DNA from: Rhodospirillaceae bacterium
Lineage (GTDB): Bacteria; Pseudomonadota; Alphaproteobacteria; Rhodospirillales; Casp-alpha2
Assembly (NCBI GenBank): GCA_018665815.1
Contig: JABJBP010000130.1
Coordinates: 62,001-126,000 of the forward strand
DNA: 64,000 nt
Reading direction: 5' to 3'
Part shown: positions 2,199-60,201 of the stretch, in pieces
Layout: the number at the start of each line of letters is the position of its first letter
Position numbering within the stretch: position 1 is the stretch's first letter
The notes under the pieces: model-generated
What the model was told of the DNA's origin: nothing
Databases searched by the model: none
Seen by the model: only the letters and a program-made list of their open reading frames with translations
Position numbers and translations under genes: made by a program

Positions 2199-2540
2199 AT
2201 GAAGTTCGGCGGATTCAATGACCTGTTCCCGAACATCACAATTCCTATGTCGACCATCACCTTGCTGGGCACAGCCGAGGTCTTGGGTTTTATCGGATAC
2301 CTGAGTGGCATGTTCGAAATGAACGAAGATGGGGATCGGGTGCTACGTGTCGGTTATTGGGACGTGGAGCGAGTCAGCTATACGGCAGCCATGTGGATTT
2401 GCTGGGGCCTCATCATTTTCATGGTGATGAGAACGAGAGATGACTCGAATTTGAAACTCGGTGTCTGTACCCTTGTCAGCATGCCCGTCGTGGTTTTCGT
2501 CATTCTGTTTTTCGACCTGATCCAACTCAGTCCGAAGTAA
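2199..2540 (+). CDS. Small membrane protein, unknown function
   Basis: This 113-residue protein has about three hydrophobic segments (roughly residues 18-38, 62-77 and 85-108). Between the first two sits a charged loop (MNEDGDRVLRVGYWD) that resembles a short extramembrane hairpin. A GGAG ribosome-binding site lies about 8 bases before the ATG. No named family is recognised. It is followed by a convergent LysM gene, so it is probably transcribed with the glutaredoxin gene or alone. Confidence 0.6.
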   Translation: MKFGGFNDLFPNITIPMSTITLLGTAEVLGFIGYLSGMFEMNEDGDRVLRVGYWDVERVSYTAAMWICWGLIIFMVMRTRDDSNLKLGVCTLVSMPVVVFVILFFDLIQLSPK

Positions 2541-2655
2541 TTTTTCCGCAGCGCGTGCCGCGCCCACAGGCGTGAAAGACGCCGGCCGAATTATCGTAGA
2601 ATCTTGGCGCGGTGAGCTCTAAACAGTACCGCAGTTGCACTATTCCCATGGTAGA

Positions 2656-3672
2656 TTAGTTGGTTGCCGGCACCGCCAGGACTTGGCCTGGGAAAATCAT
2701 ATCCGGGTCAATGATCTGTTCTTTGTTGGCCGAATAAATCGTGGTGTAGCGGAAGCCTGTCCCATAGGCGCGTCGGGCTAGCCGCCAGAGACTGTTGCCG
2801 GGTTGCACGATCACAAAGGGTTCGGGCGGCATGCTGTCGAGGGCTTCGGCGCGCGAGAACGGCAATTCGATGCGCGCCAGGACCTTGCCCGCAGCGTTCA
2901 CTTCATCGGCGCGCAGTTTATATAATCCGGGCGCCACCGGACTGTCGGGCTTGATCCGCCAGCCGCCGTTCTCATCAACTTCGACGCGGCTGATGGGCTT
3001 GTTATCCATGTATAGCTGGACATAGCGCCCCGGTTTTCCCCGTCCGCTGATATGCAGCCGGCCCGCATCATCATAATCGACCGTATCGACGGATAATTGC
3101 TTGGCGGCGCTTTCCGGTGTTGGTTTTTGCAGGACGGTAGATGGCCCATCACCTTGGCGGGGGAATTTTAGAGCCAGGGCTTGGCCCGGACGCTTGGTCG
3201 GTCGGCCGGCGATGTCTTTGTTCTTTTCCGGGACCACAACCACCACCACGTCATCTGACGGGACTGCCGGTTTGCCTTTGCTCCGCTGTTCAAGGGACAG
3301 TTGCCGGCTGCCCGGTTCCAGCGGCTTTTCAGGCGCGAACACCCATTCACCGCGCTCATCAGCATCGAGTTGTCCGACGAACTGACCGTTGTCGATGATT
3401 ACCACGGTGCTTTTCGGCGCGGCTTGGCCGGCGAACACGGCGTTGCCTTCGGGGGTTACACGGACCACATCGAAGCTTGGCTTGGGCTTCGCGGCAATGG
3501 GCTTGGCCGGTTTGGGCGCCGGTTCGGGCGCGGCGGGCTTTTGCTTTTGCGCGGCCTGTGCCACGTGCACCGGCGTGTCGACTTCGTCATTCCACAGATA
3601 GACGTTAACACCGATAGCGGTGGAGACGGCGGTGGCGCCAAGCAGCGCTAGTATGAGCGGGTTCGACCACAT
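2656..3672 (-). CDS. LysM-domain envelope protein
   Basis: A membrane-anchored cell-wall-associated protein. One N-terminal hydrophobic segment (about residues 5-26) is followed by a Lys/Pro/Ala-rich linker (about 40-65). Two beta-rich repeats with GEWVFAPEKPL and GGWRIKPDSPV resemble bacterial Ig-like modules. A C-terminal LysM domain occupies about residues 287-336 (FVIVQPGNSLWRLARRAYG through FPGQVLAVP). LysM binds N-acetylglucosamine-containing glycans such as peptidoglycan. The architecture is common in Rhodospirillales, where the specific role is unknown. It is divergent from the cytochrome b561 gene. Confidence 0.85.
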   Translation of the reverse strand: MWSNPLILALLGATAVSTAIGVNVYLWNDEVDTPVHVAQAAQKQKPAAPEPAPKPAKPIAAKPKPSFDVVRVTPEGNAVFAGQAAPKSTVVIIDNGQFVGQLDADERGEWVFAPEKPLEPGSRQLSLEQRSKGKPAVPSDDVVVVVVPEKNKDIAGRPTKRPGQALALKFPRQGDGPSTVLQKPTPESAAKQLSVDTVDYDDAGRLHISGRGKPGRYVQLYMDNKPISRVEVDENGGWRIKPDSPVAPGLYKLRADEVNAAGKVLARIELPFSRAEALDSMPPEPFVIVQPGNSLWRLARRAYGTGFRYTTIYSANKEQIIDPDMIFPGQVLAVPATN

Positions 3673-6137: not shown

Positions 6138-6881
6138 TTACCCGCCAAACACCTTGCTCAGAATTTCCGTGGTCCGTTTCGCCGGATTCTTGCGGATTTC
6201 CGCTTCTTCGGCGGCCAGGTAATGGAACAATCCCTTGAGCGCCAGATCGGTGGTGTGTTGTGACAGATTGGCTTTGACGTCGGGGACGAAGGGCAAGGCT
6301 TTGTATTGGCCCATGAGTTGATCGTAGGTCGAGATCGCGCCGACCTCGGCCAAGGAACTGTCGACCACGGGTTTCACCGTCGCCGCCAAATCATTTGTCG
6401 CGACTTTCTTGAAATATTGTGTAGCGGCATCATCGGGGCCCTTATAAATCGCCATGACGTCATCGAGGGTCATTGATGAAATCGCTTTCCAGATCAATTC
6501 CTTGGTTTTCGGCGCGGCCGCCTCGGCGGCTCGGTTGAGCCGCAGTTCGACATCATCGGCGAGCGCCGAAAGGCCGAATTTCTTCAGCAATCCTTAGACT
6601 TTCTGAAGTTGCGGCGGCAACGGAATATGAATGGCCGGATCGGCGTTAAAACCGTCATTGGCGCCGATAGACGAGACCACCCGTTCGGTGCCCACTTTGA
6701 GCGCTTCGCGCAGCCCCGCCGTGACGTCCGATTGGCTAAGCCCGCCGCCCGACGAGGTGCCGCCCGATTGGCCGGTCACCGAACCGATGGCGCCCTGCAG
6801 CTTATCGAACAGACTTTGCGCCGATGCATCCGACGCTAGTAACGCAAGCGCGACGCTAAGCGAAATGACCATGTGTCGCAT
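6138..6881 (-). pseudogene. DUF4197 protein gene interrupted by an in-frame TAA
   Basis: The frame from the ATG at 6881 encodes a signal peptide (ending ASDASAQS) and the start of a DUF4197 protein (LREALKVGTERVVSSIGANDGFNADP would be the conserved core). It stops at TAA (6594-6596) right after PPQLQKV. The same frame resumes at once with GLLKKFGLSALADDVELRLNR and runs to the normal C-terminus (NPAKRTTEILSKVFGG). Together the two parts give one full-length DUF4197 protein of about 247 codons. The stop differs from CAA (Gln) by one C-to-T change. A TTG codon at 6590 could in principle restart a 150-residue C-terminal product. The gene follows bioD on the same strand; the family function is unknown. 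Confidence 0.85.
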
Positions 6882-6935
6882 GGACGGATTCTCTTTAATC
6901 AAATACGGCGCGGCCCCCTGCCTTGCCGTTGTCAT

Positions 6936-7607
6936 TTAGGTTGCCAAATCAACCAACAATTCAGGTTGGTCCGGCGAATATTTGCCCCGAGGCAATGATC
7001 GCAGATCGATGTCGGGCAAAAATCGGCGAATGGTCTCGACGGTCTCTTCAAGCGGCACAGGGCTATCTTCGGACTCGCTGACAACAAGCGTCGCGATTTC
7101 CAGGCCGCGGGCCCGCATCGCTTCGACGGTGGTTAACGTATGGCTCAATGTCCCGAGATACGACCCCACAACAACGATGCACGGAATGTCGAGGGTCGTA
7201 ATCCAGTCGGCGACGGTGTGGGTTTTATCCATTGGGACCATGACGCCGCCGACACCCTCGATCAGGCCGACATCGCTGCCGTTTGCCATGGTGTCGCGGC
7301 AAAACTCAATCAATTCATCGAAGTCGACGGCGCGGTCTTCGCGGCTCGCGGCCATATCAGGTGACAGGGGCTCTTCAAACCGCCACGGCGACAAAGCTTT
7401 GACGTTCTCGAACTCCGGTTTTAGATCCAGCGCGCTCAGCAGCCGTCCGGTATCCGAATATTGAAGCGCATGCCAAGTAAAGCCGGTGATCACCGGCTTG
7501 ATCGCGTTGACGGTTTTGCCCGCCGCCGAAAGTTCCCGGATGAACCGGGCTGTCACCACGGTCTTGCCTACACCGGTGCCGGTGGCGGTGACAAAGAACT
7601 GTTTCAT
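6936..7607 (-). CDS. bioD: ATP-dependent dethiobiotin synthetase
   Basis: Closes the ureido ring of dethiobiotin from 7,8-diaminopelargonate, CO2 and ATP, the penultimate step of biotin synthesis. The 223-residue protein opens with MKQFFVTATGTGVGKT, the P-loop of BioD. It also shows the Lys of AIKPVITG, the Mg-binding EGVGGVMVPM and the later GSYLGTLSHTLTTVEA segment. It overlaps the end of bioF by 4 bases, so the two are translationally coupled. It is the last biotin gene of the operon. Confidence 0.96.
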   Translation of the reverse strand: MKQFFVTATGTGVGKTVVTARFIRELSAAGKTVNAIKPVITGFTWHALQYSDTGRLLSALDLKPEFENVKALSPWRFEEPLSPDMAASREDRAVDFDELIEFCRDTMANGSDVGLIEGVGGVMVPMDKTHTVADWITTLDIPCIVVVGSYLGTLSHTLTTVEAMRARGLEIATLVVSESEDSPVPLEETVETIRRFLPDIDLRSLPRGKYSPDQPELLVDLAT

Positions 7608-52239: not shown

Positions 52240-54036
52240 ATGAGTGACAATCAAGAAACCGGAACGCTTGCGGACGCCGAGGCCATGTCACGTTTGATGG
52301 GCGATTTCGCCGAGCGCTCGCAACGCATCGTCCAGTCGTTTTGCGATCGCCAGACCGCTGATGGTGGCTTTCAAGTCGCCGATCCAGTGATCATCGGTAA
52401 GGCCTTCATGGATATGACCGCCAAATTGATGGCCGATCCGCAAAAACTGGCGGAGGCCCAAGCTGAATTGTGGCAAGGATACGCGAAGCTTTGGGAAAAC
52501 ACGGCGAAGCGCATGGCCGGCGAAGAAGTGGAGCCCGTTGTCGCGCCGGCCAAGGATGATCGCCGTTTCAAGGATGCAGCCTGGAGCGAGCAGGCGATGT
52601 TCGACACCATCAAACAGTCTTATTTGTTGGCGGCGAATTGGATGCAGGGGACGTTTCGAGACGTCGATGGCTTGGATGATAAAACCCGCGAAAAAATCGA
52701 TTTTTATACACGCCAGTATGTCGACGCCTTGTCGCCGACAAACTTTGTCGCGACAAATCCGAAAGTGTTGGAAAAAACCATTGAGACCAAGGGCGAAAAT
52801 CTGCTGAAAGGGTTGGATCATTTGTTGGGCGATCTTGAAAACGGTCAAGGTCAGCTCAAAATTTCGATGACCGACACCGATGCCTTTACGCTCGGCGAGA
52901 ACGTCGCCACAACACCGGGGAAAGTCGTCTATCAAAACGACTTGATGCAATTGATCCAGTATACGCCGTCAACCGAGAAGGTGTTTTCGACGCCGTTGCT
53001 GATCGTTCCGCCATGGATCAACAAGTTTTACATCTTGGATTTACAGCCGAAAAATTCACTGATCAAGTGGGCCGTCGATCAAGGGCATACTGTGTTCATC
53101 ATCTCTTGGGTCAACCCCGATGAACGCCATGCGGACAAACGGTTTGATGACTACATGCTGGAAGGACCGTTGGCCGCGCTGGATGCAATCGGTGAAATTA
53201 CCGACGAAGAGAAAATCAATATCATCGGCTATTGCATCGGTGGCACGTTGACGGCTTGCACACTGGCCTATATGGCGCATAAGGGTGACGACCGCGTCAA
53301 TTGTGCGACGTTCTTCACCACTATGGTGGATTTCGAGGAACCGGGTGAGTTGGGGGTATTCATTGATGAAGAGCAACTCGCGAAACTCGAAGAGCATATG
53401 TCCGAGAAGGGGTATTTGGACGGGGGGCATATGTCCCAAGTCTTTAACATGATGCGTGACAACGACCTGATTTGGTCGTTTGTGATCAACAATTACCTAA
53501 TGGGGCGGGAACCCCTAGCTTTTGATCTGTTGTATTGGAACGCCGATTCGACCCGTATGCCGGCCATGATGCATTCGCTTTATCTGCGTGAAATGTATTT
53601 GAATAATAAGCTGGTTGAACCGGGCGGGATTACCCTTGCCGGCGTGCCGCTTGATTTATCGAAAATCGATCTTCCGATGTATTTGATTTCAACCAAGGAC
53701 GATCATATCGCGCCGTGGAAATCGACCTATAAAGCGACGCAATTATATAAGGGTAAAGTGCGATTTGCGCTTTCTGCATCCGGTCATATCGCAGGTGTTG
53801 TAAACCCACCGGCAGCCGGAAAATATTGCTTTTGGACGAATGCCAAACAACCGAGCGATCCCGACGAATGGTTTGAAGGCGCTACGCAACACGATGGTTC
53901 ATGGTGGCCAGATTGGCAAAAATGGGTAAAAAAATTCACAGGCCCTCAAACCGCCGCCCGCCAGCCCGGAAACAAGAAACATAAACCCATTGAAGATGCA
54001 CCGGGTGCATATGCCAAAGTTCGGCTAAGTTCCTAA
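52240..54036 (+). CDS. phaC: Class I poly(3-hydroxyalkanoate) synthase
   Basis: Polymerises 3-hydroxyacyl-CoA into storage polyester on granules. The 598-residue length suits class I. The catalytic triad is readable: Cys332 in IIGYCIGGT (the lipase-box-like motif), Asp488 in STKDDHIAPW and His516 in ASGHIAGVVNPP. LIVPPWINKFYILDLQPKNS and the N-terminal PhaC_N domain are family-typical. GGGAGG precedes the ATG. The phaA and phaB genes are not in the window. It is followed 15 bases later by the regulatory phosphatase gene. Confidence 0.96.
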   Translation: MSDNQETGTLADAEAMSRLMGDFAERSQRIVQSFCDRQTADGGFQVADPVIIGKAFMDMTAKLMADPQKLAEAQAELWQGYAKLWENTAKRMAGEEVEPVVAPAKDDRRFKDAAWSEQAMFDTIKQSYLLAANWMQGTFRDVDGLDDKTREKIDFYTRQYVDALSPTNFVATNPKVLEKTIETKGENLLKGLDHLLGDLENGQGQLKISMTDTDAFTLGENVATTPGKVVYQNDLMQLIQYTPSTEKVFSTPLLIVPPWINKFYILDLQPKNSLIKWAVDQGHTVFIISWVNPDERHADKRFDDYMLEGPLAALDAIGEITDEEKINIIGYCIGGTLTACTLAYMAHKGDDRVNCATFFTTMVDFEEPGELGVFIDEEQLAKLEEHMSEKGYLDGGHMSQVFNMMRDNDLIWSFVINNYLMGREPLAFDLLYWNADSTRMPAMMHSLYLREMYLNNKLVEPGGITLAGVPLDLSKIDLPMYLISTKDDHIAPWKSTYKATQLYKGKVRFALSASGHIAGVVNPPAAGKYCFWTNAKQPSDPDEWFEGATQHDGSWWPDWQKWVKKFTGPQTAARQPGNKKHKPIEDAPGAYAKVRLSS

Positions 54037-54051
54037 GATCGTGCGGAACTC

Positions 54052-55842
54052 ATGAACGACACGCCTATCCCTAAGGCATCCGAGACGGCCTCCAGCGAAA
54101 GCCAGGTGTTCGACCATCTGGAATTGCTTTCGCAAATGGGCCAGGATTTTGTCTCAACCCGTGATTTACAGTCATCGCTTGTCCGAGCCGTCCAACACAT
54201 TACCGATTATGTCGGCGCAGAGGGCGGTGCGCTGTTCATGTTGGAAGACGAAGACACAATGTTGGAGTGCCAGGCTTGTGTCGGCGTGACAGAAATCACA
54301 GGCCTAAGGTTGCCGAGCGATCAGGGGATCGTTGGACGCTCGGTCCAGGAAGATGCGCCGGAAATCATTCGTGACGCCCAAAATGATCCGCGTTTCTACA
54401 AAGGCGTCGACAAGCAAACCGGCTTTACGACACTGTCGATCCTTTGCGCGCCGATGAGCGTCAAAGGTGAGCGTATCGGTGCCATCGAATTAATTAACAA
54501 GAAAAGCGGCGACGGGCTGTTCGATGACAGCGATCTGCATCTTTTGCGAGCGATGAGTGCGTCGGCAGCATTGGCTATTCACAATGCGCGCATGGCAGAA
54601 GCGCTTGTTGAACAGGAGCGATTGGCCCGTGAATTGGAACTGGCGGCGGAAATTCAGCGATCCTTGTTGCCAAGTGAGCCGGAAGATGATTTTCCGGTTT
54701 TCGGCATAAATTTTCCGGCCCGTACGGTATCCGGTGACTTCTTCGATTTTTTTGAACTACCCGACGGTCGCATCTGCTTCAATTTGGGAGACGTGTCCGG
54801 TAAAGGCATGAACGCGGCATTGTTGATGGCGAAGACCGCAAGCCTCTATCGTTGCCTTGGCAAGACTATTGAACATCCCGGCAAGCTACTGGCATTGATA
54901 AATGAAGAGGTCTGCGAAACCGCGGCGCGCGGCATGTTCGTCACAATGGTTGGTGGAATCTACGATCCGAAAACTGGAATTGTCTTAATGGCGAACGCCG
55001 GCCATGAGCCGCCGTTGCTGCATTCGGCAAGTGGTGAATTTTCGGAATTACCGGCGGAAGCGCCGCCCCTTGGCATTTCAACCATGCTGGTTGATGAAGA
55101 CGGGTACCCCGAAGAGGAATTCGATCTCGAAGGCGGCGCGCTGTATATTTTCACCGATGGCGTGACCGAGGGGTACAAAAAAGACGGTTCGGAACTTGGC
55201 GCTGAAGGCGTGAAGGAAATCCTGTCAAAGCACCAAAAAGACCAAATCAAAGTTCGATTAAACACAATTGCCGGGAAAATTGCTCGAAGCGGCGAAGCGT
55301 TGCGCGATGATCTGACATTGATCGGTATCGATGGCGCAGCAGCGCAAGTCGCGAAGAAAGCAGCTGGGCAGTCCGAGAACATGAACGCGGACATTGGTGA
55401 AGGTGGCGGCGAGGGACAAGTCCTCGGTGCCGAAACCATGTCGTCATTGCGGATACTCTCGCAGCCGAACCGGCTAAAACTGGTTCGCGAACTGGTCGCT
55501 GAAACGGCCAACCTTGCTGGGTGCTGCATGGAGGACACTCGTGATTTGGTGATTGCCGTTGATGAGGCACTGCAGAATGTTATTCGCCATGCCTACGGTG
55601 GTGCACCTGACGGCGATATTGTCATCACCATGGAGCGCCAGAAAGAAGATCTTGTTATCTATGTGCGTGATCACGCACCGACAATTGATCCGAGTAATGT
55701 AAAACCTCGCGATTTGGATGATATTCGCCCTGGTGGGTTAGGCACGCACTTCATTCGCGAGGTCATGGATGACGTGGAATTTCTTCCGCCACCCAAGGAT
55801 GGCGGTAATGTGCTAAGGATGGTAAAAAGAATTAAGCAATAA
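54052..55842 (+). CDS. GAF - PP2C (SpoIIE/RsbU) - histidine-kinase-like (RsbW) fusion
   Basis: A 596-residue soluble signalling protein with three parts. An N-terminal GAF domain covers about 20-170 (VGAEGGALFMLEDED, PMSVKGERIGAIELINKK). A PP2C-type phosphatase covers about 190-430 (LAAEIQRSLLPSEP linker helix, TVSGDFFDFF metal Asp, GDVSGKGMNAALLMA, FTDGVTEGY). A C-terminal RsbW-type ATPase covers about 460-590 (AVDEALQNVIRHAYG N box, GGLGTHFIREVMD G box). It thus carries both the activity that dephosphorylates and the one that phosphorylates a STAS protein. The STAS gene is next, 34 bases on. Confidence 0.92.
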   Translation: MNDTPIPKASETASSESQVFDHLELLSQMGQDFVSTRDLQSSLVRAVQHITDYVGAEGGALFMLEDEDTMLECQACVGVTEITGLRLPSDQGIVGRSVQEDAPEIIRDAQNDPRFYKGVDKQTGFTTLSILCAPMSVKGERIGAIELINKKSGDGLFDDSDLHLLRAMSASAALAIHNARMAEALVEQERLARELELAAEIQRSLLPSEPEDDFPVFGINFPARTVSGDFFDFFELPDGRICFNLGDVSGKGMNAALLMAKTASLYRCLGKTIEHPGKLLALINEEVCETAARGMFVTMVGGIYDPKTGIVLMANAGHEPPLLHSASGEFSELPAEAPPLGISTMLVDEDGYPEEEFDLEGGALYIFTDGVTEGYKKDGSELGAEGVKEILSKHQKDQIKVRLNTIAGKIARSGEALRDDLTLIGIDGAAAQVAKKAAGQSENMNADIGEGGGEGQVLGAETMSSLRILSQPNRLKLVRELVAETANLAGCCMEDTRDLVIAVDEALQNVIRHAYGGAPDGDIVITMERQKEDLVIYVRDHAPTIDPSNVKPRDLDDIRPGGLGTHFIREVMDDVEFLPPPKDGGNVLRMVKRIKQ

Positions 55843-55876
55843 GAAGGATTTTTGGGAAGGGGTCCAAGGGTAGCGA

Positions 55877-56209
55877 ATGAAACACGAAATTAGGGAAGAA
55901 CAAGGGGCGTTGGTTGTTGCCTTTAATGGTGACATCGATTTGCAAAGCTCGCCCGAAGCTCGCCAGGTCCTGCTTGAAGCGGTTGGCAAGAATATGCCGA
56001 TACTCGTTGATCTCAGCGGCGTTGGGTATATTGATTCGTCTGGGGTCGCCTCGTTGGTTGAAAGCTTTCAAACGGCGCGCAAGGGCGCCCAGAATCTGGT
56101 GCTTGTGTCAGTTAGTGACGGTGCCAAGCGGGTTCTGCAATTGGCGCGTCTCGATAAGGTTTTTACAATCTGCGACAGTCTCGACGACGGGATTGCCGCC
56201 GTCGGCTGA
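55877..56209 (+). CDS. STAS-domain protein (SpoIIAA/RsbV or MlaB type)
   Basis: A 110-residue single STAS domain. The switch loop YIDSSGVASL (Asp53, Ser54, Ser55, Gly56) carries the phosphorylatable Ser of anti-anti-sigma factors. DLSGVGY precedes it as the usual strand. It sits between the phosphatase/kinase fusion and mlaE, so two roles compete: target of the fusion, or MlaB subunit of the lipid transporter, or both. E. coli MlaB lacks the DSSG serine, which favours phospho-control here. Confidence 0.88.
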   Translation: MKHEIREEQGALVVAFNGDIDLQSSPEARQVLLEAVGKNMPILVDLSGVGYIDSSGVASLVESFQTARKGAQNLVLVSVSDGAKRVLQLARLDKVFTICDSLDDGIAAVG

Positions 56210-56219
56210 GCGTTGATTG

Positions 56220-57035
56220 ATGGCCACTGAAAACGAACATAATTCCGCAGGCCGCTTTTTTGAAAACGTTGGCCGTAGTGCTGTCCATGGCATCGAGGAA
56301 GTGGGCAATGGCGGCGTTATGGTTCTCGAAAGCCTCTATTGGACTATCTTCGGTTATCGGTTGAAGCAACCGGTGCGGATGAATGCCGTCATTGAGCAGA
56401 TGATGGAAATTGGTATTACCGCGATCCCTATCATTGCCATGCTTGGCGGCGCAATTAGCGTCACCTTGGCCATCCAAGGGATTCACACGTTGCGTATTTT
56501 TGGTGCTGAAAGCCACGTCACGGCGGGGCTAGCATTTGTCGTTGTGCGTGAATTTGCACCGATGATCACCGGCATCCTGGTTGCCGGGCGATCGGGTTCT
56601 GCGCTGGCGGCCCGGATCGGCACAATGAAAATCAATCAGGAAATTGATGCCCTTAAAGTTATGGGGATCAATCCAATCCGATATCTGGTGGCGCCGCCGC
56701 TTATTGCCATGGTCATCATGGTACCGTGTTTGACAATCATGAGCGCTGGTGTCGGTTTATTTTTGGCTGGGGTTTATATCAACGTTGAGCTTGGCATATC
56801 GTTGTCAGCATATCTCGATCAGGTTATCGACATCTTGAAAGTTGATGATGTCGCCCAAGGATTAAGTAAAAGCTGTATTTATGCGGTTGAGATAGCTGTT
56901 ATCGGCGTCGTCAACGGCGCAGGTGTCAGAGGCGGCGCCGAAGGCGTCGGGAAAGCAACGACACGCTCGGTCGTCCAAGCTATTTCAGCAATCATCGTGA
57001 CGGCCATGATCGTCGTGATCATGTCGACGGTATAG
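56220..57035 (+). CDS. mlaE: MlaE-family phospholipid ABC transporter permease
   Basis: A 271-residue inner-membrane permease of the Mla system, which moves glycerophospholipids between outer and inner membrane. Five or six hydrophobic spans are visible. RSGSALAARIGTMKINQEIDALKVMG (about 120-145, span) is the MlaE signature with the coupling helix, and PIRYLVAPPLIAMVI follows. The ATG at 56220 is used. It begins 10 bases after the STAS stop. Confidence 0.94.
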   Translation: MATENEHNSAGRFFENVGRSAVHGIEEVGNGGVMVLESLYWTIFGYRLKQPVRMNAVIEQMMEIGITAIPIIAMLGGAISVTLAIQGIHTLRIFGAESHVTAGLAFVVVREFAPMITGILVAGRSGSALAARIGTMKINQEIDALKVMGINPIRYLVAPPLIAMVIMVPCLTIMSAGVGLFLAGVYINVELGISLSAYLDQVIDILKVDDVAQGLSKSCIYAVEIAVIGVVNGAGVRGGAEGVGKATTRSVVQAISAIIVTAMIVVIMSTV

Positions 57036-57049
57036 TCGGGGGCGGCGCG

Positions 57050-57913
57050 ATGAGCGAGCAAGATATTGTGATGGAGGATCGATCTGCGGCCCAGAGCGTG
57101 CCGCCGTCTGTGATTGAGGTTGAAGACCTAGTCACTCATTACGGTGAGCGCGAAATTCTCAAGGGTGTCACCATGGAGGTTCGCGAGGGCGAGATCATGG
57201 TGATCATGGGTGGCTCGGGTTCCGGCAAATCAACCTTGCTGCGTCATTTGATGGCGCTTGAGCAAAAAACCTCCGGCACAATGACCATCTTGGGCCAGAA
57301 TATCGACGATTTGAATATGCAGGAATTCACCGATCTTCGTAAAAAGCTTGGCGTCGCGTTTCAGGGCGGCGCGTTGTTCAGTTCGCTGACAGTCGGTGAA
57401 AACGTCATGTTGCCGCTCTACGAGCATACTGGCCTTGATCGCAAAACCATGGAAATCATGGCGCGCATGAAGATGGAAGTCGTCGAGCTTGGTGGGTTCG
57501 AAGATCTGATGCCGGCGGAGCTTTCTGGCGGAATGATCAAACGGGCGGCTTTTGCCCGCGCTGTCGTCATGGACCCACGGATTCTTTTCTGTGATGAGCC
57601 GTCTGCAGGGTTGGACCCGGCAGTTGCGTCGGCGCTCGACGAGTTGATCCTTAATCTCCGCGATGCCATGGGCATGAGTATTGTCGTTGTCACGCACGAA
57701 CTAGACAGCGCTTTCAAGATTGCGGATCGGATCACTATTCTGGACAGGGGCCATATCTTGATGATTGGCACCGTCGACGAAGTCAAAAGCTCTACGAATG
57801 AACGCATTTATAACCTCCTCAACCGGGTGCCGGACGGTGAAAACCTTGATCCGGATGAATATTTGGCACGTCTTACCGGTGAGGAATCCGGGGTCGGGAA
57901 CCAGCCTTTATGA
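57050..57913 (+). CDS. mlaF: MlaF-family phospholipid transporter ATPase
   Basis: ABC ATPase that powers MlaE. The 287-residue protein has Walker A MGGSGSGKSTLLRH, signature ELSGGMIKRAAFARA (the Mla-type LSGGM), Walker B ILFCDEPSAGLDP and the switch His in VVTHELDS. The N-terminal 20 residues form an extra hydrophilic leader before IEVEDLVTHYG. It overlaps mlaD by 4 bases. Confidence 0.95.
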   Translation: MSEQDIVMEDRSAAQSVPPSVIEVEDLVTHYGEREILKGVTMEVREGEIMVIMGGSGSGKSTLLRHLMALEQKTSGTMTILGQNIDDLNMQEFTDLRKKLGVAFQGGALFSSLTVGENVMLPLYEHTGLDRKTMEIMARMKMEVVELGGFEDLMPAELSGGMIKRAAFARAVVMDPRILFCDEPSAGLDPAVASALDELILNLRDAMGMSIVVVTHELDSAFKIADRITILDRGHILMIGTVDEVKSSTNERIYNLLNRVPDGENLDPDEYLARLTGEESGVGNQPL

Positions 57914-58887
57914 GAAGTTCAAAAATTAATTACCTTGTCGTCGGCCTGTTCGTTTGCGGCATGATGGCCGCTCTAGTCGTCACCATTGCCGCATTGACCG
58001 GGCGTACTGGCGCGGTCGACAATTACTATGCGATTTACCGCAACGTCACTGGAATTAAATTCGGTACACAGGTGATTTTTGAAGGCTATCCAATTGGCCA
58101 GGTTGAGAAAGTGACGCCGCGACCTCAGGAAGGCGGCATGGTTTTCCGTGTTGATGTCGCGGTGGTCAGTGGCTGGAAGATTCCGGCAAATAGTGATGTT
58201 GAGATTGCCGCGCCCAGTCTACTTTCAGCGAAAACCCTGAGCATTCATGCTGGCACATCGAAAGCCGCATTGAAGCCTGGAGACGAAATTCCAACAGTCG
58301 GCTCCGCAGATGTATTCGGCGCCATGGGGACCTTGGCAGACCAGATTTCCGGGTTGATTGACGGGGAGGTCAAACCGCTTTTGCAGAACGTTGGTATTGC
58401 GGTCAAGGACATCAATAAATTCTTGGTCAGTGACGGCAATGAACTGGTCAAGGATGCCGCCGGGCTGGTTAAGGATTTGGGGGACCGAATTCCGAGGATC
58501 GCCCATCAGATCGAAACTTTCTCGACCAATATGTCGGATGCCAGCGAACAAGTGATGAAACTCGCCTCATCGAAAAATCGCGAGAGTATCGAGCGATTGC
58601 TGAAAGACATGAATGCGACTGTCGGTCAGGTGCAGGGCGTGCTGGGGACAATGAAGCAGGTGATGGCAAATTTGGATCAGCTTGTGGTAGAGCCAAAGGA
58701 GAACGTTGGGAAAATCTTGAAGGAAACGCGCTACATTGTCGATTCCGTGTCGCGTCATATCGACGCGATTAATCAAAACATGGAAGGCGCTGCCCGAAAC
58801 ATGAACGAGTTTTCACGTCAAATCAGGGCCAATCCAGGGTTGTTGCTTGGTGGTTCACCGCAAGAAGATAAGACCGGGAGCCGATAG
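57910..58887 (+). CDS. mlaD: MlaD-family MCE-domain protein
   Basis: A 325-residue periplasmic lipid-binding protein with an N-terminal membrane anchor (about residues 6-29). The MCE domain covers about 38-115 (YAIYRNVTGIKFGTQVIFEGYPIGQVEKV span; ISIHAG-like TLSIHAGTS). The remaining half is helical, with heptad-like stretches (about 150-310), as in PqiB/YebT tunnels. This is longer than E. coli MlaD and closer to the long alphaproteobacterial forms. It overlaps mlaF by 4 bases and is followed immediately by the lipoprotein gene. Confidence 0.93.
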   Translation: MRSSKINYLVVGLFVCGMMAALVVTIAALTGRTGAVDNYYAIYRNVTGIKFGTQVIFEGYPIGQVEKVTPRPQEGGMVFRVDVAVVSGWKIPANSDVEIAAPSLLSAKTLSIHAGTSKAALKPGDEIPTVGSADVFGAMGTLADQISGLIDGEVKPLLQNVGIAVKDINKFLVSDGNELVKDAAGLVKDLGDRIPRIAHQIETFSTNMSDASEQVMKLASSKNRESIERLLKDMNATVGQVQGVLGTMKQVMANLDQLVVEPKENVGKILKETRYIVDSVSRHIDAINQNMEGAARNMNEFSRQIRANPGLLLGGSPQEDKTGSR

Positions 58888-59562
58888 ATGGTGAGGGCCT
58901 TATTTATGAGCCGGAAGTTTAATCATACCTCAATAGAGTTGACGGCGCTTAGGGTATGGCGTCAGAGCGTTGCTAGAGCTGGCATGGCTTTGATAACCGT
59001 CCTCATCATTTCGTCGTGCAGCTCCGCGCCGCCCGTTCCCGAGGATCACTATTACCGGCTACAAGCGGTCCATGCGGGTGAGCAAAAAGCGGCCAAATTG
59101 TTTGCGGGCACCATTGAAATTGACCGCTTTGTCGCTGATGGGCTGACTTCCGAGCGCGCTATTGTCTACTCCAAAGCGGGTAGCCCGAACGAGGTTAAGG
59201 CACATCATTATCATTTCTGGATTAAGCCGCCGACGGTCATGCTCCGCGATGAACTCGTCAGTTTTCTGCGTCAAGCCAAGATATCGAAAGCAGTGGTGAC
59301 GCCCGCCATGCGGGTGCGTGCAGACTATGTCGTAACTGGCAAAATCAGACACCTTGAACGCGTCACAGGTGAAAATGGCCGGACCCGCCTGGAAGTAGAG
59401 CTGGGCGTACGCAATCCGTCGGATGGAGAACTCTTGTTCCTGAAAACTTACAAACAGGACAACGCGACAGTGGACGCCAGCGTTGCTTCGGGGGTCGAAG
59501 CATTAAACACCGCGCTATCGATCATATACGCGGATTTTCTTAGTGACGTATCGAAGCGTTGA
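58888..59562 (+). CDS. PqiC-like transport auxiliary lipoprotein
   Basis: A 224-residue lipoprotein of the ABC-type transport auxiliary family. The lipobox ISSC sits at about residue 44, an unusually distant position that suggests a later start, for example the Met at residue 33 (58984). The body matches the family: DHYYRLQA at the mature start, AGTIEIDRFVADGLTSERAIVY, and a C-terminal VASGVEALNTALSIIYADF. In Pqi and related MCE systems this protein sits in the outer membrane and accepts lipids. It directly abuts mlaD. Confidence 0.85.
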   Translation: MVRALFMSRKFNHTSIELTALRVWRQSVARAGMALITVLIISSCSSAPPVPEDHYYRLQAVHAGEQKAAKLFAGTIEIDRFVADGLTSERAIVYSKAGSPNEVKAHHYHFWIKPPTVMLRDELVSFLRQAKISKAVVTPAMRVRADYVVTGKIRHLERVTGENGRTRLEVELGVRNPSDGELLFLKTYKQDNATVDASVASGVEALNTALSIIYADFLSDVSKR

Positions 59563-59580: not shown

Positions 59581-60201
59581 ATGATGTCTGAGCGTCAGAT
59601 CGCGAGTGAGTTCCAAGCGACGGCCTTATCTCCCTCTCGCCGATGGGCACGGCACGGTCATCGTGGCGGAGTTCTTTGGCTAACAGGACTATCGGGGTCG
59701 GGAAAGTCGACCTTAGCGGTTGCCCTGGAACAGGAATTGTTCAGCCAGGGGGCGCAGGTCTTTGTCCTTGATGGGGACAATCTTCGACACGGACTAAATG
59801 GTGATCTCGGTTTTTCACTGGCTGATCGGCGGGAAAACGTGCGCCGAGTTGCGGAAGTTGCCCATGCTTTTGCAGAAACAGGGATGATCGTTATAAGTGC
59901 ATTCATATCGCCGCTTCATGCCGATCGCGACAATGCGAGAAAGATGATCGGCGCGGGCTTTCACGAGGTTTATTTGGATGCGGACCTCAGTGTTTGTGAA
60001 AAACGAGACCCCAAAGGCCTCTATCGCAAGGCGCGAGCCGGCTTCATTGAAGACTTTACCGGAATATCGTCACCCTATGAAAAGCCCCAAACGCCGGAAC
60101 TCACGCTGCATACCGGTATTGATCAGATCGAAATGTGCGTTGCCGAACTGCTGGCTTACGCGGACACCATATTTGCGCTTTCGGAAACAAAGCCGGAATA
60201 A
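59581..60201 (+). CDS. cysC: Adenylylsulfate kinase
   Basis: Phosphorylates APS to PAPS. The 206-residue protein has Walker A WLTGLSGSGKSTLAVALE, VLDGDNLRHGLNGDLGFS with the APS-binding Arg, ENVRRVAEVAHAFAETG, and the ISPLHADRDNAR and DPKGLYRKARAG blocks of CysC. No cysN, cysD or cysH gene is near, so PAPS may serve sulfation rather than assimilation here; that is inference. It follows the lipoprotein gene by 18 bases. Confidence 0.93.
   Translation: MMSERQIASEFQATALSPSRRWARHGHRGGVLWLTGLSGSGKSTLAVALEQELFSQGAQVFVLDGDNLRHGLNGDLGFSLADRRENVRRVAEVAHAFAETGMIVISAFISPLHADRDNARKMIGAGFHEVYLDADLSVCEKRDPKGLYRKARAGFIEDFTGISSPYEKPQTPELTLHTGIDQIEMCVAELLAYADTIFALSETKPE

Follow-up and report, generated by a model that had tools for sequence, protein, structure and literature searches.

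The six-gene operon at positions 54052 to 59562 of the window, a stretch of 64,000 nucleotides from contig JABJBP010000130.1 of a Rhodospirillaceae bacterium, raises the question of whether the output of a partner-switching module can be an ATP-binding cassette (ABC) lipid transporter rather than a sigma factor. In the E. coli Mla transporter, Thr52 of the STAS subunit, MlaB, is placed close to the middle of the interface with the ATPase, MlaF. According to the available text of the two reports, the replacement T52E weakened MlaF binding, while T52A abolished the ATPase activity and left binding intact (PMC7367683, PMC5016091). MlaB stabilised MlaF, which dropped off the complex when MlaB was missing, and phosphorylation of MlaB was proposed in 2016 and again in 2020 but was left open there, with no kinase at hand (PMC5016091, PMC7367683). 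The window operon encodes a serine at the place of MlaB Thr52 as well as a kinase and a phosphatase. On the strength of this combination and the E. coli data, we propose, with a probability of about two in three, that the operon is a partner-switching module with an ABC lipid transporter as its output, in which the STAS protein would be a dissociable MlaB-like subunit gated by phosphorylation.

The first gene (54052..55842, + strand, as are all the features described below unless stated otherwise) encodes a single polypeptide of 596 residues in which a sensor, a phosphatase and a kinase are joined, as judged from the open reading frame (ORF), Pfam matches and a 24-row alignment. A GAF domain, the putative ligand sensor (54160..54582; GAF_2, residues 37-177, E = 5.7e-15), is followed by a SpoIIE-type PP2C phosphatase domain (54760..55329; residues 237-426, E = 3.9e-36) with Asp229, Asp247, Asp369 and Asp419-Asp420, and by an RsbW-like HATPase kinase domain (55459..55827; HATPase_c_2, residues 470-592, E = 1.5e-26) with the N-box residues Glu505, Asn509 and His513, Asp540 and the sequence GGLG. 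The next gene (55877..56209) encodes a free STAS protein of 110 residues, which matches the STAS family of Pfam (E = 1.1e-18), is of the anti-sigma-antagonist type in NCBIfam and is MlaB-like by position. The codons of its DSSG motif, Asp53-Ser54-Ser55-Gly56, are located at 56033..56044, and Ser54, not Ser55, is the predicted phosphosite because of the alignment with TM1442 (DSAG) and E. coli MlaB (DTGG). The features that define a partner switch, a STAS protein with a conserved acceptor serine, a HATPase domain with N, G1 and G2 boxes and a SpoIIE-type PP2C domain with metal-binding aspartates, were all found in these two proteins.

The remaining four genes encode an MlaE-family permease (56217..57035, Pfam E = 9.3e-64, starting at TTG 56217 or ATG 56220), an MlaF-like ATPase (57050..57913; ABC_tran, E = 7.6e-31) with solved MlaF chains as its top structural matches, an MlaD/MCE protein of 325 residues with a long C-terminal region (57910..58887; MlaD, E = 1.5e-10) and a PqiC-like lipoprotein (58888..59562; ABC_trans_aux, E = 3.4e-10). 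The intergenic gaps among the six genes range from -4 to 34 bp, a spacing as in an operon. Pfam confirmed what an earlier, sequence-only reading of this DNA had described, namely one protein with GAF, RsbU-type phosphatase and RsbW-type kinase domains, followed by a DSSG-bearing STAS protein and by mlaE, mlaF, mlaD and a lipoprotein gene; the six ORFs lie on the + strand at the stated positions. That reading had also treated the operon as an ordinary Mla operon, and here it has to be corrected. The MlaF, MlaD and MlaE proteins scored 188.3, 55.9 and 149.2 bits against the NCBIfam models of the canonical Mla equivalogs, which have cut-offs of 441, 135 and 315 bits, respectively, and MlaE scored 199.5 bits against TIGR00056 (cut-off 212.2). 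No mlaC was found among the ORFs of the operon, either in the ORF list or in the Pfam scan. In its make-up, MlaE and MlaF with a long MlaD of 325 residues and a PqiC-like lipoprotein, the transporter resembles Mpc (the Mla-Pqi chimera) and not a canonical mlaFEDCB system.

The switch and the transporter were found together with great regularity. A window-type MlaE was present in 189 of the 317 genomes of the order (E <= 1e-65), and in 86 of 89 loci that were picked by MlaE alone, the phosphatase-kinase and STAS genes were located directly upstream of mlaE. The other three loci are cut off by a contig edge, which lies 8, 238 and 272 bp before mlaE. Since 86 of 89 MlaE-picked loci carry the whole set upstream, the linkage is far beyond chance. 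No MlaE above 38% identity was found in 42 genomes of the order picked for lacking the phosphatase-kinase, and this co-absence, combined with the linkage, suggests that transporter and switch tend to be gained or lost jointly. The gene order was the same, as far as the contigs extend, in 80 named loci picked by the phosphatase-kinase, except for one in which no mlaE was found (L241) and one with a different mlaE (L237). The 596-residue protein was found in 14 of 385 genomes of the class (E <= 1e-80), 12 of which lie outside the order, and it had no match among the PLSDB plasmids at E 1e-60. The named isolates that carry the operon include Magnetovibrio blakemorei MV-1 (L214) and Terasakiella brassicae (L222). 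In two loci, the RsbW-like kinase and the STAS protein are fused as one ORF directly before mlaE (L309, about 2525-3280; L314, about 1740-2495, in the oriented loci), with the phosphatase encoded by a separate gene, a fusion which argues that kinase and STAS are direct partners.

The residues on which a switch would depend were nearly invariant in the 162 unique operons carrying the transporter, on which the residue counts and the coupling analysis described below were based. The acceptor motif was DSSG in 161 operons and DSSC in one. The kinase N-box Glu, Asn and His were intact in 159, Asp540 and GGLG were present in all 162, and in the 24-row alignment both the metal-binding aspartates of the phosphatase and the catalytic residues of the kinase were invariant. 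The MlaF signature LSGGM was likewise present in 162/162. The C-terminal extension of the window MlaF, NLDPDEYLARLTG (57842..57880), is the counterpart of the extension of E. coli MlaF that includes Tyr261, Leu265 and Leu266; DPDEYLARLTG in the window protein aligns with D260-Y261-H-A-D-L265-L266. In E. coli, a C-terminal 'handshake' inserts the Tyr and Leu at the groove between MlaF and MlaB (PMC7367683, in its available text). Tyr271 and Leu275 (Y-x-x-x-L) occurred together in 160 of the 162 MlaF tails, in 156 of them as Y-x-x-R-L. One of the two exceptions has Phe271 and the tail of the other could not be aligned.

A contrast was provided by 15 MlaE proteins to whose N-terminus a STAS domain is fused (L125-L130, L375-L385), from genomes of the class, some of them of the same order. 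No phosphatase or kinase match was found around them, in stretches short enough (3.6-5.2 kb) for a more distant kinase to have escaped. The acceptor sites of the fused STAS domains were DTAG, DTTG, DTVG, DTMA, DSAG, DSGL, DSGF, DSAF or DSAL, with DSSG in none of the 15, and the Y-x-x-R-L motif was absent from all 15 MlaF tails. DSSG and the gripping MlaF tail therefore go, by sequence, with the free, kinase-linked STAS protein, since the 15 kinase-less systems have neither. In E. coli, the MlaF tail accompanies a free STAS protein, MlaB (DTGG), that has no neighbouring kinase or phosphatase gene. STAS-MlaE fusions within the operon family itself were considered as a 'Rosetta stone' and rejected, as the two apparent 375-residue frames (L100, L104) hold a stop between the genes.

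The same core was found in Gammaproteobacteria, joined to transporter bodies of two kinds. Relatives of the phosphatase-kinase of locus L237 occurred in 33 of the 369 genomes of its class (E <= 1e-70), and 20 further loci were fetched from the 32 other matching genomes. In L237, a metagenome-assembled genome labelled Ectothiorhodospiraceae, the phosphatase-kinase and STAS genes precede genes for MlaE, a 148-residue MlaD, MlaA and MlaC, while MlaF is encoded on the opposite strand. The MlaD scored 160.9 bits against the NCBIfam cut-off of 135, and MlaA and MlaC were recognised by NCBIfam or Pfam. Identity with the window proteins was 58% for STAS and 60% for MlaF, but only 32% for MlaE and 21% for MlaD, and the L237 MlaE and MlaD were 42% and 35% identical to those of E. 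coli. Because the identities split in this way, the STAS protein appears to travel with MlaF and not with the membrane part. The canonical MlaE-MlaD-MlaA-MlaC layout was found in five of the 19 gammaproteobacterial operon loci (L237, L352, L353, L355, L358), so that, though L237 itself is a metagenome assembly, its layout is repeated in four other genomes. The other 14 have the window-type layout (L366 only as far as MlaF). DSSG and a tail of the form Y-x-x-[R/E]-L were present in 19/19 of these operons, and the gammaproteobacterial STAS protein scored 28.7 bits against NCBIfam mlaB_1 (cut-off 90). Judged from these sequences, phosphatase-kinase, STAS and MlaF make up a constant core, to which either of two sets of membrane and periplasmic parts is joined. 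A constant STAS-MlaF core is what would be expected if STAS acts on MlaF.

The arrangement of the two proteins was modelled with AlphaFold from the window DNA read through the stop codons, STAS and MlaF being in a shared frame, with a 108-row alignment. Both domains of the tethered chain had a predicted local distance difference test score (pLDDT) of about 96, 373 of the 678 residues had a pLDDT >= 70 and the predicted template modelling score (pTM) was 0.62, compared with a value near 0.43 that we estimate would be expected were STAS unplaced relative to MlaF. A control tether of the PqiC-like lipoprotein and CysC gave a pTM of 0.56 with 358 of 437 residues confident. Judged from pTM and pLDDT only, the model favours a defined STAS-MlaF arrangement. 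The matches shown from the structure library were ABC ATPases matching the MlaF part, with solved MlaF chains on top, tail included.

In the mechanism that we propose, the unphosphorylated STAS protein would sit on MlaF, held by the C-terminal extension, where it would permit ATPase activity and keep the pump on. The RsbW-like kinase domain would phosphorylate Ser54 at the predicted centre of the MlaF interface, the phosphorylated STAS protein would release or disable MlaF, and transport would stop. The PP2C domain, controlled by the GAF domain, would then remove the phosphate and switch transport on. We thus infer the phosphorylation, the binding of STAS to MlaF, the direction of the switch, a GAF ligand and a lipid cargo. 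We lean slightly towards a fuller version in which the ABC ATPase replaces the sigma factor as partner, STAS would shuttle between the kinase and MlaF, serine phosphorylation responsive to the GAF ligand would gate the lipid pump, and the same cassette would operate on Mpc-like and canonical Mla bodies. Many Alpha- and Gammaproteobacteria encode the kinase and the phosphatase within the operon of such a lipid pump, next to the small STAS protein as their likely substrate, and phosphorylation probably turns the pump on and off in them. That STAS phosphorylation switches Mla transport was already the suggestion of the sequence-only reading; it has been strengthened by the linkage (86/89), the DSSG (161/162) and MlaF tail (160/162) counts and the re-use in Gammaproteobacteria, while phosphorylation and binding stay predicted.

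The rest of the host genome (3.89 Mb, about 98% complete) bears on whether these proteins have other partners. A second MlaE-MlaF pair was found on another contig (C132; L046), beside an ORF that we take to be alanine-racemase-like. MlaC was matched four times in the genome, and the MlaD domain twice more on another contig (contigs C17, C11, C41, C150 for these matches). These matches indicate that a canonical-like Mla set exists besides the window operon. PF01740 detected STAS at five places in the genome, the window protein, two long frames of SulP size and two small solitary STAS proteins, which had no kinase or mla match beside them. One of the latter (L043:9304-9639) is 48% identical to the window STAS and has DSSG. 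No STAS match was found on the contig of the second MlaE-MlaF pair, although a divergent MlaB could escape the model, and so the separate mlaB that the sequence-only reading had wished to see sought did not appear among the five. The search for a sigma partner that it had likewise suggested gave three Sigma70_r2 matches, with no SigB/F/G-type factor among them: RpoH, a 125-residue ORF like those of the extracytoplasmic function (ECF) class, and a 685-residue frame assigned to RpoD solely from its length. The window HATPase was the best HATPase_c_2 match in the genome, at 97 bits, the next scoring 30.6.

Three other explanations were weighed. The module could be an ordinary partner switch of gene expression, with the kinase as anti-sigma factor, STAS as its antagonist and the transporter as a merely co-transcribed member of the regulon. 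The STAS and kinase do score best against the RsbV/RsbW and SpoIIAA/SpoIIAB-type families, and the alphaproteobacterial RbaVWY system affects gene expression through a target not known from the available text (PMC3999984). We nevertheless consider this explanation quite unlikely. A mere regulon member would not show the linkage seen in the MlaE-picked loci, STAS would not accompany MlaF into canonical Mla loci, and the sigma factor matches of the host are limited to the three listed, although the sigma factor of RbaW was likewise not found, as far as the available text of that study goes (PMC3999984). STAS could instead be a constitutive structural MlaB, with the kinase and phosphatase tuning stability or assembly and no rapid on/off switch, as the stabilisation of MlaF by E. 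coli MlaB and the T52A protein, which binds yet has lost ATPase activity, might suggest (PMC5016091, PMC7367683, available text). The invariant DSSG, the intact kinase and phosphatase sites and the retention of DSSG in all gammaproteobacterial operons speak for a reversible modification, and make a purely structural role unlikely.

Several observations weigh against a switch that acts on MlaF. NCBIfam assigned the window STAS to the anti-sigma-factor antagonists (81.1 bits, cut-off 53.45), with a score for mlaB_1 of 24.7 bits against a cut-off of 90, and the kinase could hold another partner. No inter-protein pair rose above noise in a mean-field coupling analysis of STAS-kinase, STAS-MlaF and STAS-MlaE in the unique operons (effective number of sequences 127-138). 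Among the six highest-ranking STAS-MlaF pairs, two linked Phe64 of STAS with positions 264 and 268 of the MlaF tail; being within noise, they were not used as evidence. Phosphatase-kinase-STAS modules without an adjoining mlaE were found in two genomes, G018 (L086, apparently the same contig as L241) and G260 (L154, with an ABC ATPase of another kind downstream), and two gammaproteobacterial loci (L354, L370) had the phosphatase but neither STAS nor Mla genes within the sequence examined. In two loci (L158, 1279-2009, - strand, and L159), a pair of STAS genes in tandem separates the kinase gene from mlaE; their products share about 45% and 62% identity with the window STAS, and both of those of L158 have DSSG. 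In L079 (about 6850-7560, - strand), short mlaE and lipoprotein remnants, without an mlaF or mlaD match, accompany an intact switch, the result of either a deletion or an assembly error. The mlaE-less modules, the tandem STAS loci and L079 suggest that STAS may have further partners in some lineages. The mlaE-less modules and the second tandem STAS, like the solitary paralogue in the host, would also fit a module that regulates another process, such as lipid synthesis or envelope stress signalling, with a multi-target STAS for which MlaF is one target or none; as the transporter accompanies the module in 162 unique operons, so few cases make that explanation very unlikely.

The genes on either side were rejected as parts of the system. 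A class I polyhydroxyalkanoate synthase gene, phaC (52240-54036, + strand), lies just upstream, and an adenylylsulfate kinase gene, cysC (59581-60201, + strand), lies downstream of the lipoprotein gene. phaC was found within 1.5 kb upstream in only 12 of the 99 operons with room, and cysC was next downstream in 19 of 96, so the 'membrane-carbon link' that the sequence-only reading had seen in phaC does not hold for the operon in general.

Comparison with known systems shows where the operon is familiar and where it departs. Like the RsbU-RsbV-RsbW and SpoIIE-SpoIIAA-SpoIIAB systems, it encodes a PP2C phosphatase, a HATPase kinase and a serine STAS protein with the catalytic and acceptor residues, but it is bound up with an ABC transporter, and the host genome yielded no sigma factor of the SigB/F/G type. 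The output of the classical partner switches is such a sigma factor.

RbaVWY of Rhodobacter capsulatus is also an alphaproteobacterial partner switch with no identified sigma factor; in the available text, however, RbaY is a REC-PP2C protein and a transporter link is not reported (PMC3999984). In Vibrio fischeri, SypE is a dual serine kinase/phosphatase acting on the STAS-only protein SypA, whose target is not known, and the output is biofilm formation; this review of STAS proteins lists several STAS-only systems whose target is not known and, in its available text, does not mention MlaB (PMC8256260). The Mpc (Mla-Pqi chimera) system of Brucella abortus shares the MlaE-type permease, MlaF, long MlaD, PqiC-like lipoprotein and a STAS domain, which in Brucella is fused to the permease at its N-terminal end, as far as the available text shows (PMC12436622), whereas the window STAS is a separate ORF. 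E. coli MlaFEDB also has a free STAS subunit with MlaE, MlaF and MlaD, and a Tyr and Leu at matching places in the MlaF extension, but MlaB has a Thr (DTGG), lacks an adjoining kinase or phosphatase gene and belongs to a family, mlaB_1, that rejects the window STAS. No description of a partner-switch module joined to an Mla/MCE operon was found in the open-access literature, most subscription literature being outside the scope of the search. The parts are of known kinds, and it is their near-obligate union that is not described in the literature found. With a kinase and a phosphatase encoded beside STAS in a widely conserved operon, the question of MlaB-type phosphorylation becomes directly testable, also in the named isolates. 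If the proposal is true, ABC transporters would be added to the outputs of partner switching, which would suggest a kind of target for those STAS proteins that have no sigma factor.

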